Below, in pieces: positions 4,354-8,152 of a stretch of 23,480 nucleotides of DNA (its first letter is position 1; every line of letters begins with the position of its first letter). Below the pieces are notes generated by a model. It did not search any database. It had not been told where the DNA came from and worked only from the letters and a program-made list of their open reading frames with translations. Location of the stretch: positions 1-23,480 of the IMG/VR virus record IMGVR_UViG_3300047359_001380, one strand, 5' to 3'. The stretch comes from a virus. The position numbers and the translations under genes were made by a program.

Positions 4354-5637
4354 ATGAGAAAATTAATCGCAGCGTTCGCTGTGCTATTCCCAATGACATT
4401 ATCTGCTCAGACTTATACTGATAGTGTTGCACAAATAATAAACGACAATTGTGTAGTATGTCATCGTCCAGGCGGCATTGGTCCTATGAGTTTTGTAGGC
4501 TATGAAGCAGTTCGTCCGTGGGCACCTTTAATACAAATGAAAGTAGCTAATAGAGAAATGCCACCGTATGCATACGATCACGGTATAGGCATACAAGACC
4601 TACAAGGTGATTGGCGACTGTCACAAAAAGAAATAGATACTGTAGTAGCTTGGGTTGACTCAGGCTCCCAATATGGAGATAACGATATAGTCGTCCAACC
4701 TCCAAATCTTGCTGACCCTGACGAATGGAATTTTGCTGGTGACCTTGGTCAACCTAATCTAATTATTCCTAGCGTTCCAATAGATATTCCAGCAAGTGGT
4801 AACGATCTGTGGCATAAGCACCTAGTACCAACAGGGCTAACTGAAGATAGATGTATAAAAGCAGTCCAAGTAAAGCCTAGAGGTGATGCAAAATCAGTTG
4901 TACATCATGCAAACTCTAATGTTGTGATCGACGGAGGTCGTGAAGGCATGCTCACGGAGTATGCTATGGGAAAGTGGGGAGAGATTGTTCCAGAAGGAGT
5001 ATGTCGTACACTACCGGCGAACTCGCAAGTACGTTGGGACATACATATGTTCCCAGGTGGACTTGGAGCAATGGCACCAGGATCAGTTATTCGAGACAAC
5101 GTAGTGGAAATTGGTCTTTGGTTATACAGCGAAGAGGAAAGCCAAGAACTGAAATACAAACAAGATTTAAGTTTATATCGCTTAGGAGATCAGGCAGATA
5201 TAGTTATCCCCCCGCATGGTTTTCATATGACCCAAGGGTTTCACAGTTTTGATCATCCTGTAAGATTAGATAGTTTTCAACCGCACGGACACTTGCGTAT
5301 GAACGCAGCAAGTTTGGAAATATTCTATCCTAACACAGGACGTACAGAACAGATTAGCCAAGTAAGTAATTGGAGTGCAACATGGCATCACAGCCATTTG
5401 TACGAACCAGACGTAGCACCATTAATACCTGCAGGAGCAGTTATTATATTAAAGCAGTGGTACGATAATACTGCAAACAATCCAAACAATCCAGACCCTG
5501 ATATGTGGGTAATGGGAGGATCAAGAACAGGTGATGAAATGACACATGCTTGGCTTGCTATTACACATCTAGACGAAGAAGGATATGAGAAACTAAAGGA
5601 AGAAAGGAATGAAAAAATTAATATTGCTAGTAGGTAG
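4354..5637 (+). CDS. Secreted cytochrome c / PHM-like copper type II monooxygenase-like protein (copy 1)
   Basis: The 427-residue protein starts with a signal peptide (basic MRK, hydrophobic core to about residue 14, TLSA-Q cleavage near 18). A mono-heme cytochrome c domain follows: CVVCH at 33-37 with M69 in REMPP as likely axial ligand. From about residue 125 the layout matches bacterial proteins annotated as copper type II ascorbate-dependent monooxygenase C-terminal domain (peptidylglycine hydroxylating monooxygenase fold). Candidate copper ligands are H184-H185 (VVHH), H231 (DIHM), H311 and H313 (PHGH) and M396 (GDEM). It should act in the periplasm and needs host Ccm heme attachment. 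PHM-fold enzymes hydroxylate C-H bonds with O2 and electrons; here the heme domain could be the donor (inference). C167 and C217 might form a disulfide. Its 3' end overlaps copy 2 by 29 bases. Confidence 0.82.
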   Translation: MRKLIAAFAVLFPMTLSAQTYTDSVAQIINDNCVVCHRPGGIGPMSFVGYEAVRPWAPLIQMKVANREMPPYAYDHGIGIQDLQGDWRLSQKEIDTVVAWVDSGSQYGDNDIVVQPPNLADPDEWNFAGDLGQPNLIIPSVPIDIPASGNDLWHKHLVPTGLTEDRCIKAVQVKPRGDAKSVVHHANSNVVIDGGREGMLTEYAMGKWGEIVPEGVCRTLPANSQVRWDIHMFPGGLGAMAPGSVIRDNVVEIGLWLYSEEESQELKYKQDLSLYRLGDQADIVIPPHGFHMTQGFHSFDHPVRLDSFQPHGHLRMNAASLEIFYPNTGRTEQISQVSNWSATWHHSHLYEPDVAPLIPAGAVIILKQWYDNTANNPNNPDPDMWVMGGSRTGDEMTHAWLAITHLDEEGYEKLKEERNEKINIASR

Positions 5638-6847
5638 TTTATTAACATCTGTTGCATATGCACATGAAGATGTAGATATAGACTATGCTGAAAACGTAGC
5701 ACCTATATTTGTAGAGCAGTGTCAAGCATGTCATAGAGAAAACGGTATAGCACCGTGGGCAATGACTAACTATAAAATGCTACAAGCATTTGCTCCTGCA
5801 ATTAAAGAAGCTATTGAAACTAAACATATGCCACCAGGACAAATAAATCCTGTGTATGCAGACCGTATTATAAACCACAGGACACTAAGTCATACAGAAA
5901 TAGAGACTATTGTACAATGGATTGATGCAGGTACTCCTGTAGAAGGTGATAGAGATCCTCTAACAGAAACAGTATACTCAACTTCAGAATGGGTACATGG
6001 TGAACCTGATATGATTATTGAGGTACCAGCACAAGAAATACCAGCAATAGGAACACTTGGACCTAATGCAATACCTTATAGATACACACAAGCAGACCTA
6101 GGACTAACAGAGGATCGTTGGCTACGTGGATCACAGTTTTTACCAAGCGAGCCTACAGTAATGCATCATATGCTTAATACAGTAAGTTTACCTGGCGAAC
6201 GAAATATGAATCTTTTAGGCGCACAAGGCGAAGGCCAAGGAGATATGAACTATGCAACTATTAGTGCATATGTTCCTGGCGGCGATCCAGAATACTATGA
6301 CGAAAATACTGGTGGGTTACTACGTGCAGGATCAATTGTAAATCTACAGTTACACTATACACCAGACGGAACTGCTAGAACAGACAAAGCAAGGATTGGT
6401 TTATACTTTCATGATGAGGGAGTAGTACCTCAAGAAAGAATGGCAGGTGATTGTGCTTGTATATTCCCTAACACTTGGACAAATATACCTCCTTATGATC
6501 CTAACTTTGTACAAAAAGCTGAAATAACTGTACAAAACAATGTAAACTTACATACATTTTTACCGCATATGCATTTTCGTGGTAAAAGCATGAAAGCAAC
6601 AGCATATTATCCAGATGGAACATGGGAAGAACTAATAGATATTCCCAAATATGACTATGCTTGGCAACTTTCATATACTTGGCGTGAACCTAAATTTATC
6701 CCTGCAGGTACTGTGTTGCATGTAGAAGGAGCATTTGATAATTCAGAAGATAATCCTATGAATCCTGATCCAAGCAGAAGTGTACCTTGGGGGCAAATGT
6801 CAGAAGATGAAATGTTCTTTGGAGCATTTACGTGGAAAAACTTATAG
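5609..6847 (+). CDS. Secreted cytochrome c / PHM-like copper type II monooxygenase-like protein (copy 2)
   Basis: The 412-residue protein is a diverged paralogue of the preceding one. It has a signal peptide (MKKLILLVGSLL, cleavage after VAYA at residue 18), a CQACH heme motif at 38-42 and M74 in HMPP. The PHM-like part begins at about residue 125 with SEWVHGEPDM. All six expected copper ligands are visible: H186-H187 (VMHH), H249 (LQLHY) for the first site; H320 and H322 (LPHMHFRGKS) and M402 (DEMFFGAF) for the second. PHMHFRGK and NPDP close to the end are hallmark family stretches. The ATG at 5609 lies inside copy 1, with AAGGAAGAAAGG directly upstream, so the two are translationally coupled and probably made in similar amounts. 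C281 and C283 form an extra Cys-x-Cys pair. The stop TAG is 13 bases before pqqA. Confidence 0.85.
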   Translation: MKKLILLVGSLLTSVAYAHEDVDIDYAENVAPIFVEQCQACHRENGIAPWAMTNYKMLQAFAPAIKEAIETKHMPPGQINPVYADRIINHRTLSHTEIETIVQWIDAGTPVEGDRDPLTETVYSTSEWVHGEPDMIIEVPAQEIPAIGTLGPNAIPYRYTQADLGLTEDRWLRGSQFLPSEPTVMHHMLNTVSLPGERNMNLLGAQGEGQGDMNYATISAYVPGGDPEYYDENTGGLLRAGSIVNLQLHYTPDGTARTDKARIGLYFHDEGVVPQERMAGDCACIFPNTWTNIPPYDPNFVQKAEITVQNNVNLHTFLPHMHFRGKSMKATAYYPDGTWEELIDIPKYDYAWQLSYTWREPKFIPAGTVLHVEGAFDNSEDNPMNPDPSRSVPWGQMSEDEMFFGAFTWKNL

Positions 6848-6859
6848 AGGAGAAGAATT

Positions 6860-6931
6860 ATGTGGACTAAACCAACTTACGAAAATATAAGACTTGGATT
6901 TGAAATCACTATGTATTTTTCAACGAGGTAA
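6860..6931 (+). CDS. pqqA: PqqA, pyrroloquinoline quinone precursor peptide (23 aa)
   Basis: A 23-codon frame opens with MWTKPTYENIRLG and continues with FEITMYFSTR to TAA at 6929-6931. That is the length and sequence pattern of bacterial PqqA (MW-x-KP, RLG, E-x3-Y). E15 and Y19 are the two residues that PqqE joins by a C-C bond and that become PQQ; both are at the canonical positions of the 23-residue form. AGAGGAG at 6846-6852 is a good ribosome-binding site, and the stop overlaps the next start (TAATG), so it is placed as a real gene. PqqB, C, D and E are not in the window and would come from the host. It sits 12 bases after two periplasmic cytochrome/PHM-like genes, and PQQ dehydrogenases pass electrons to periplasmic cytochromes c, so a joint role is plausible but unproven. 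Confidence 0.93.
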   Translation: MWTKPTYENIRLGFEITMYFSTR

Positions 6932-7395
6932 TGGTTGAAATATCTTTGGCGATAGCGGCAGCTTCCAAAGCCGTTAATGTAATATCCAAAGGGTTAAAAG
7001 CTGGTAGAGAAGCTCAAGACTTAGCAAGTCAGTTCTCTACCTTTTTTGATGCTAAAGATAAAATAGATACAGCTAAAACAGAATCTGAAAATCCTACTAT
7101 TGGCAGTAAAATGTTTTCCAAACAATCTGTCGAGTCGTATGCACTAGAAGTAGCATTAGCTGAGCATAAAACAAAAGACATGGAAAAACAATTACGAGAA
7201 TTGTTTGTGTATTCAGGTCAAGGTGATGTGTATAAATCTATGATGAGGACAAGACAAAAAGAAAGACAAAGACGTTTACAGGCTGCAAGAGCTTTAGCTG
7301 AACGCAAAAAGTTTTTAGCTGACGTAATACTAATAGGAATTTTAGTAAGTATTGGGCTTAGTATTGTCGGCGGATTAATCTACGTAGTAATATAA
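6931..7395 (+). CDS. Unknown protein with coiled-coil and C-terminal membrane anchor
   Basis: The 154-residue product begins with an Ala-rich helix (SLAIAAASKAVNVISKGLKAG), has a long charged helical middle including RTRQKERQRRLQAARALAERKK (about 105-126, partly quoted here as key residues), and ends in a hydrophobic segment at about 129-153 (VILIGILVSIGLSIVGG). This suggests a tail-anchored, coiled-coil protein. The start is ATG at 6931, overlapping the pqqA stop, with ACGAGG inside pqqA as ribosome-binding site. I recall similar small proteins in marine T4-like phages but no function. It is the last gene before a strong terminator, so it shares the transcript of the redox cassette. Confidence 0.75.
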   Translation: MVEISLAIAAASKAVNVISKGLKAGREAQDLASQFSTFFDAKDKIDTAKTESENPTIGSKMFSKQSVESYALEVALAEHKTKDMEKQLRELFVYSGQGDVYKSMMRTRQKERQRRLQAARALAERKKFLADVILIGILVSIGLSIVGGLIYVVI

Positions 7396-7417
7396 TTGGG
7401 GGACGAATCCCCCAATT
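7394..7417. terminator. Bidirectional intrinsic terminator between converging genes
   Basis: AATTGGGGG (7394-7402) pairs perfectly with CCCCCAATT (7409-7417) around a six-base loop. ATTTTATT follows on the plus strand and an A/T-rich tract (ATTATATTA) on the minus strand. It ends the plus-strand transcript (copper cytochromes, pqqA, 6931 gene) and the minus-strand phoH transcript, which converge here. Confidence 0.85.
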
Positions 7418-7420
7418 ATT

Positions 7421-8152
7421 TTATTCATCTCCGTAAACTTGTAACACCTCCTTAACAGCGTTATGGCGCTCAATGTCTCCTTGAGCGAAGTGGACTATGT
7501 CCAAATGTGTTGAATTACTTTTAGCTAGTAAGTTAGTAAAATCAATTAATCCATTATCTGCTTTCCGATCAGCTTGTGCTAAATCTCCAGTAACAGCCAT
7601 TTGACTTTCTTCACCTAGTCTAGTAAGCAACATTTTCATTTGATTAGGGGTTGCGTTTTGCATTTCATCTGCTAGAATAAAGCTTCTTTTGAAAGTACGC
7701 CCACGCATATATGCAAGCGGTGCAATTTCAATAATTCCTTCTTCTATCATACCTTCAATTTCCTTTGCTTGGAAATATTCACGCAATACATCGAAAATAG
7801 GTCTAGTCCAAGGCGCCATCTTTTGTTCTAGCGTACCTGGTAAGAATCCTAAATCTTCGTCTACAGACACAGCTGGTCTAGTAACAATGATTTTATCAAT
7901 TTTCCCTTCGAGAAATTGTTTAACTGCGACCTGAACTGCTAGTAGTGTTTTACCTGTACCAGCTGGTCCGATTCCGAAGACTATATCCTTGGTGTCATCT
8001 AACAGTTTTAGAACATAAGTTTCTTGATTTCTATTTCGGGGGAGTATTGTAACGTGTTTTTGTTTTTGTTTTGTGTATGATGTGTTTAGTTGTACAACAT
8101 TTGAAAAGTTGTTATTTTGATTTCTCTTACGAGAAGCTCGTTTAGCACCCAT
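7421..8152 (-). CDS. phoH: PhoH family ATPase
   Basis: The only minus-strand gene. The 243-residue protein has Walker A GPAGTGKT (62-69), Walker B FILADE (158-163), VTRPAVSVDEDLGFLPG (90-106), and later RLGEESQMAVTGDLAQ and IVHFAQGDIERH, all PhoH hallmarks. The first 40 residues are basic and low-complexity, beyond the ATPase core. PhoH proteins are NTPases linked to RNA metabolism; phoH is very common in marine phages and its phosphate-stress role in them is unproven. AAAGGAGG lies 8 bases before the ATG (minus strand), a very strong ribosome-binding site. Upstream, at 8230-8223 on the minus strand, GCTAAATA resembles a late promoter core. Confidence 0.95.
   Translation of the reverse strand: MGAKRASRKRNQNNNFSNVVQLNTSYTKQKQKHVTILPRNRNQETYVLKLLDDTKDIVFGIGPAGTGKTLLAVQVAVKQFLEGKIDKIIVTRPAVSVDEDLGFLPGTLEQKMAPWTRPIFDVLREYFQAKEIEGMIEEGIIEIAPLAYMRGRTFKRSFILADEMQNATPNQMKMLLTRLGEESQMAVTGDLAQADRKADNGLIDFTNLLAKSNSTHLDIVHFAQGDIERHNAVKEVLQVYGDE

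Follow-up and report, generated by a model that had tools for sequence, protein, structure and literature searches.

Why would a virus carry a gene for PqqA, the 23-residue precursor peptide of the redox cofactor PQQ? In many bacteria, the main methanol and sugar dehydrogenases depend on PQQ as their cofactor, and PqqA is the source of all of the carbon and nitrogen of PQQ. We found such a gene at positions 6860 to 6931 (plus strand) of the window, by which we mean the whole stretch of 23,480 nucleotides that was analyzed (IMG/VR virus record IMGVR_UViG_3300047359_001380). With a probability of about 0.78, we consider that this phage-borne pqqA would act as an auxiliary metabolic gene, providing precursor for PQQ synthesis by the host.

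The pqqA gene and its viral setting

The pqqA frame opens with ATG, runs for 23 codons, and closes with TAA, and the translation of 6860 to 6931 is MWTKPTYENIRLGFEITMYFSTR. Its start lies 12 nt downstream of the upstream gene, here called cytB, and is immediately preceded by AGAGGAGAAGAATT. The ribosome-binding site region (6847 to 6859, plus strand), as read from the sequence, contains GAGGAGAA a few nucleotides before the ATG and begins right at the stop of cytB (6847); the position of this site is the same in three other loci (L208, L140, and L152). At the other end of the gene, the stop codon and the ATG of the next open reading frame (ORF) at 6931 have one base in common, forming TAATG. 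An earlier note, made from the sequence alone, had described this ORF as encoding PqqA, with a ribosome-binding site in front and a TAATG link behind, and all three points were confirmed at exactly these coordinates.

The profile search suggested in that note gave strong matches, well above both curated cut-offs. The Pfam PqqA model (PF08042) matched the peptide with an E value of 3.6e-10 and 40 bits (cut-off, 21.1), and the NCBIfam equivalog model TIGR02107, "PQQ precursor peptide PqqA," matched it with an E value of 6.5e-13 and 48.2 bits (cut-off, 20). These PqqA models were the sole families matched in Pfam and NCBIfam; PHROGs held no family for the 23-residue peptide, and a PDB sequence search returned no match for it or for the cytB product. 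Besides, a loose PqqA regular expression matched once in the window and in none of 200 shuffles. The peptide agrees with bacterial PqqA (PF08042 and TIGR02107) in its scores above the cut-offs and in its hallmarks, all of which are present in the translation as previously claimed: the length, the MW-x-KP start, R11-x-G13, and E15-x3-Y19. The last of these is the Glu-x-x-x-Tyr pair that PqqE cross-links, and we take E15 and Y19 to be the residues turned into PQQ. Indeed, 18 of the 23 residues are identical to those of a Pseudomonadales PqqA (L230). Unlike the bacterial genes, however, the copy in the window resides in a phage, away from pqqBCDE, with a copper-monooxygenase gene on one side and a phage ORF on the other. 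Judged by these sequence matches, positions 6860 to 6931 are a genuine PqqA gene of a virus.

The viral nature of the surroundings is evident from the genes of the window, which encode a 3'-5' exonuclease, a clamp loader, a 2OG oxygenase, a ferredoxin, ThyX, PhoH, virion proteins, a GH108 lysozyme, DnaJ, and a ClpA/B-like ATPase. Viral genes (the clamp loader gene, thyX, phoH, and virion genes) flank pqqA on both sides, in accordance with the earlier placement of pqqA in a phage genome. The ferredoxin gene (2446 to 2790), which adjoins those for the 2OG oxygenase and ThyX, encodes a phage ferredoxin with a DUF3470 tail and is conserved in the lineage. The window contained no tRNA genes that might serve as a host clue. 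Among deposited phages, the clamp loader was nearest to those of Pseudomonas jumbo phages around PA5oct (54%; 285 to 288 kb), and environmental relatives of the window lineage were found on contigs of up to 357 kb. Based on this PA5oct-like clamp loader and on relatives with contigs of up to 357 kb, the 23-kb window is probably a fragment of jumbo-phage origin.

Neighboring genes and the modular presence of pqqA

pqqA is the third gene in the run cytA-cytB-pqqA-orf154. The gene cytB (5609 to 6847, plus strand) encodes a secreted protein of 412 amino acids that combines a heme-c motif (CxxCH) with a PHM/DBH-type copper monooxygenase, as indicated by invariant residues and a fold search, and its paralog cytA (4354 to 5637, plus strand), approximately 27 to 30% identical, overlaps the cytB start by 29 nt. 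Downstream, orf154 (6931 to 7395, plus strand), the start of which overlaps the pqqA stop, encodes a 154-amino-acid protein with a C-terminal hydrophobic helix and matched PHROG 32327, a family without an assigned function (E value, 2.3e-5). In 15 loci, relatives of orf154 in either orientation were also observed close to pqqA. A strong Rho-independent terminator (7392 to 7427, plus strand) with a 12-bp stem and a T-rich tail (-17.5 kcal/mol; z, -3.6) would close the cytA-cytB-pqqA-orf154 run ahead of the convergent phoH gene. Sigma-70 promoter matches around pqqA were not above chance.

The two genes upstream of pqqA had been described as periplasmic cytochrome-type genes. This description stands for the CxxCH heme-c domain; the greater part of each protein, however, is a PHM/DBH-type copper monooxygenase. 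In 30 sequences, the pattern CxxCH, HH, H, HxH, and M was invariant, corresponding to C38, C41, H42, H186, H187, H249, H320, H322, and M402 of cytB. The top fold matches of a cytB model (mean pLDDT of only 64) were peptidylglycine monooxygenase and dopamine beta-hydroxylase (Foldseek E value, 1e-9), and the model aligned with PHM/DBH structures with Z scores of 12 to 13 over about 240 to 250 residues. The invariant HH, H, HxH, and M set fits the six copper ligands of PHM/DBH in this predicted fold; the ligands would presumably be H186, H187, and H249 together with H320, H322, and M402, an assignment taken from knowledge of PHM and not from superposition. Although cytA and cytB share the predicted fold and the HH, H, HxH, and M residues with peptidylglycine alpha-hydroxylating monooxygenase and dopamine beta-hydroxylase, they are only 13 to 17% identical to these enzymes and differ from them by an N-terminal heme-c domain. 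Since the Pfam Cu2_monoox_C model scored only 16 bits on cytB (E value, 0.0087; cut-off, 23), both proteins are PHM-like rather than filed members of that family. Relatives of cytB were detected on 117 viral contigs, with identities of approximately 76 to 100% across 80 of them, and none was found in deposited phage records. Independently of pqqA, the tandem, secreted cytA and cytB (4354 to 6847) look like a viral metabolic gene pair that has not been described before.

Among the 80 viral contigs with cytB relatives that were examined, 18 carried pqqA downstream of cytB, mostly within 15 nt. Two stretches (L159 and L161) represent the empty site, in which the same cytB end leads directly into an orf154 homolog without pqqA, and in L377, the nearest relative when the whole region is compared, both cytB and pqqA are missing. 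pqqA was absent from the region examined in all 80 nearest relatives of the lineage, and a different PqqA was encoded elsewhere in 2 of 50 related records (156 and 358 kb). As most relatives of the window phage are without pqqA, the gene is optional; the comparison of these loci indicates that it is a modular insert, mobile yet kept in many viral backgrounds. No pqqA was found beside bacterial cytB copies in the short loci inspected.

PqqA in other viruses and its conservation

A tblastn search of 50,697 deposited phage records with the window peptide yielded 12 matches. Nine of these were Methylophilales phages (Melnitz, four times; Venkman; MEP301; MEP401; MEP402; and P19250A), and one was the uncultured Manatee Spring podovirus. 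Two records labeled "Acinetobacter phage MD-2021a" (L002, CAKLQF020000010.1; L010, CAKLQH020000055.1) were rejected as bacterial DNA containing pqqABCD, the polyphosphate kinase gene (ppk), and fur. All nine cultured carriers with a known host infect Methylophilales, and complete isolate genomes are included among them. Methylophilales use PQQ-dependent methanol dehydrogenase, and XoxF, a PQQ-dependent methanol dehydrogenase, dominates coastal methylotrophs. Like the window, these phages encode a PqqA of 23 to 24 residues that scores above the TIGR02107 cut-off, a cut-off exceeded by all ten representative phage peptides, whereas only 12 to 13 of 23 residues in the Melnitz and Venkman peptides are identical to the window peptide, and no deposited phage contains a cytB relative. 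PqqA is annotated in none of the ten deposited phages (the nine Methylophilales phages and the Manatee Spring podovirus); instead, an ORF antisense over pqqA is annotated in Melnitz (L003, 3961 to 4056) and in the Manatee Spring podovirus (L005, 2067 to 2195). The Melnitz paper names PQQ solely as a medium supplement.

We further searched IMG/VR using three degenerate DNA patterns derived from PqqA. The pattern MW-x-KP...LG-x-E was found in at least 120 stretches, and all those listed encode a 23-residue PqqA; the pattern R[LF]GFE[IV]TMYF was found in 115 stretches (complete) with 41 peptides. The third pattern ends at residue 14 and leaves E15 and Y19 free, so that losses could have shown; it was found in at least 120 stretches, 19 of them new among those listed. 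Combined, the three scans gave at least 244 viral stretches with a PqqA peptide. In other phages, pqqA is located in many unrelated neighborhoods, and nearly all of the viral copies from these scans are preceded by a good Shine-Dalgarno sequence, most having a ribosome site of their own.

All of the third-pattern matches examined (100% of 141 distinct nucleotide sequences) keep E15, T17, Y19, and the stop at codon 24. A homolog with an interrupted frame or an altered E15 or Y19 would have spoken against the PqqA assignment, and no such phage was among the listed matches of this pattern ending before residue 15; together with the profile scores, this supports the overall reading of the ORF as PqqA. 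The differences between near-copies were almost all silent, with a pN/pS of approximately 0.02 over 165 distinct DNA sequences, a value computed from non-independent pairs and from searches whose patterns favor conserved copies. These data suggest that strong purifying selection acts on pqqA in a wide diversity of viruses.

The earlier statement that phage PqqA is little described holds almost entirely, the exceptions being a metagenomic report from 2020 and a mention from 2026. In VP_266, a T4-like phage of Lake Baikal Methylophilaceae, PqqA was proposed in 2020 to feed PQQ synthesis of the host (PMC7678222), and a 2026 paper lists phage PqqA among phosphorus-cycle genes (PMC13188868). The open-access literature contained nothing on phage PqqA beyond these two, subscription papers and preprints being outside the scope of the search; a paper that mentions co-expression of the host PqqA family with defense systems concerns bacterial copies (PMC11118758). 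Its length of only 23 residues explains why phage PqqA has hardly been noted in the literature. VP_266 and the window have in common a phage-encoded PqqA and its proposed supply to host PQQ synthesis. However, the PqqA of VP_266, a methylotroph phage, is located beside a phage methanol dehydrogenase, whereas pqqA in the window is located beside heme-c/copper monooxygenases in a jumbo-type lineage whose host is probably a member of the Pseudomonadales, and a VP_266-style quinoprotein alcohol dehydrogenase was found beside pqqA in none of 80 viral records here. What appears to be new is that nine methylophage isolates have an unannotated PqqA, that PqqA occurs in at least 244 environmental stretches with the cross-linked residues strictly conserved, that viruses show a PqqA-only pattern, and that in a jumbo-type lineage the gene shares a cassette with copper monooxygenases.

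Probable precursor supply to the host and rival explanations

In 48 viral records, among them contigs of 116, 217, 340, and 356 kb, the PqqE profile nowhere reached its cut-off and gave weak generic radical-SAM matches at most; in 80 viral records, there was no match to the PQQ alcohol dehydrogenase family. This implies that the rest of PQQ synthesis would be carried out by host enzymes and that the viruses probably supply the substrate peptide alone, although pqqBCDE may be located elsewhere in the window phage, since the viral records searched were mostly fragments and the window represents 23 kb of a probably much larger genome.

Bacterial cytB relatives were found in Pseudomonadales, with identities of 45 to 54% in the best genomes; they are longer than cytB and number up to six per genome. 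Among 20 Pseudomonadales genomes with such relatives, 8 contained both PqqA and PqqE and 12 contained neither. The gene for the Pseudomonadales PqqA with 18 of 23 residues in common with the window peptide (L230) is immediately followed by pqqB-like and pqqD-like genes. From the cytB relatives, the eight genomes with PqqA and PqqE, and this PqqA match, we infer that the host of the window phage is probably a PQQ-making marine Pseudomonadales bacterium. Against this host assignment, neither PqqA nor PqqE was found in the Pseudomonadales MAG with the closest bacterial cytB (G001; 76%), which may be incomplete and whose contig is odd-looking. A Pseudomonadales MAG contig (L211, JALRBG010000283.1), with a cytB 75% identical, a truncated cytA, and bacterial-looking genes, is possibly a phage-derived or chimeric contig.

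According to the precursor-supply reading, the phage PqqA peptide would be produced in quantity during infection and bound by host PqqD, host PqqE would join E15 to Y19 by a cross-link, a host protease would trim the cross-linked peptide, and host PqqB and PqqC would complete PQQ. The added PQQ may keep the periplasmic quinoprotein dehydrogenases of the host (methanol, ethanol, and sugar dehydrogenases) loaded, and these could sustain the electron flow and the ATP supply that phage production draws on. The two secreted heme-c/copper monooxygenases beside pqqA are perhaps part of the same redox remodeling of the periplasm. It is doubtful, and at best a tentative idea, that cytA-cytB-pqqA constitutes one unit in which PQQ dehydrogenases, strengthened by the phage PqqA, would pass electrons via heme-c to PHM-like copper oxygenases along a new periplasmic route; if true, this unit would be a virus-spread copper monooxygenase system fed by quinoproteins.

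It has been reported that pqqAB overexpression in Acetobacter pasteurianus increased PQQ by 29%, that pqqA alone has been overexpressed in Gluconobacter oxydans, and that overexpression of the whole PQQ operon in acetic acid bacteria gave eightfold PQQ (PMC7936290). Given these increases in acetic acid bacteria, PqqA on its own could plausibly raise PQQ, though perhaps only modestly; the eightfold effect of the operon versus the 29% of pqqAB implies that PqqA need not be the limiting step.

Three other explanations each fit worse than precursor supply. It is improbable that the gene serves to interfere, either because phage-driven PQQ fills a PqqU-type importer that is the receptor of other phages or because the peptide ties up PqqD or PqqE. 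PQQ does prevent a phage that targets PqqU from infecting E. coli, and PqqU occurs widely in Gram-negative bacteria (PMC12124388), but a decoy would not need such strict keeping of the cross-linked residues, length, and frame, and the cultured carriers track PQQ-dependent methanol users. Equally improbable is a hitch-hiker, taken from a host with adjoining genes and without effect on infection. Such an origin would agree with the modular insertion, the empty site in L159 and L161, and the loss of both cytB and pqqA in L377, whereas the apparent purifying selection across very diverse viruses, the many unrelated neighborhoods, the ribosome site of most copies, and the lack of any broken copy among the matches examined argue against it.

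We regard it as very unlikely that the ORF is a look-alike, namely, the precursor of another radical-SAM-modified peptide or a chance ORF. The gene is very short, and weak peptide similarity can arise by chance; nevertheless, the equivalog match (6.5e-13), the lack of matches in the shuffles, the hundreds of intact homologs, and the 18 residues shared with a PqqA upstream of pqqB-like and pqqD-like genes point the other way. Contamination of viral records with bacterial DNA, as in the two matching "Acinetobacter phage" records that are clearly bacterial with pqqBCD adjoining, is refuted for the window and for the isolates by the position of pqqA between phage genes, by the complete genomes of isolated phages among the carriers, and by the lack of PqqE above the cut-off in the 48 viral records.

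Precursor supply to the host is thus the reading that we prefer. Auxiliary metabolic genes stay hidden in a blind spot for short ORFs, as illustrated by the two deposited genomes in which an antisense ORF occupies the place of pqqA. Besides, the presence of pqqA on hundreds of phage contigs and in nine methylophages suggests that viruses commonly push the quinoprotein metabolism of their hosts, and topping up host PQQ looks like a common viral strategy.
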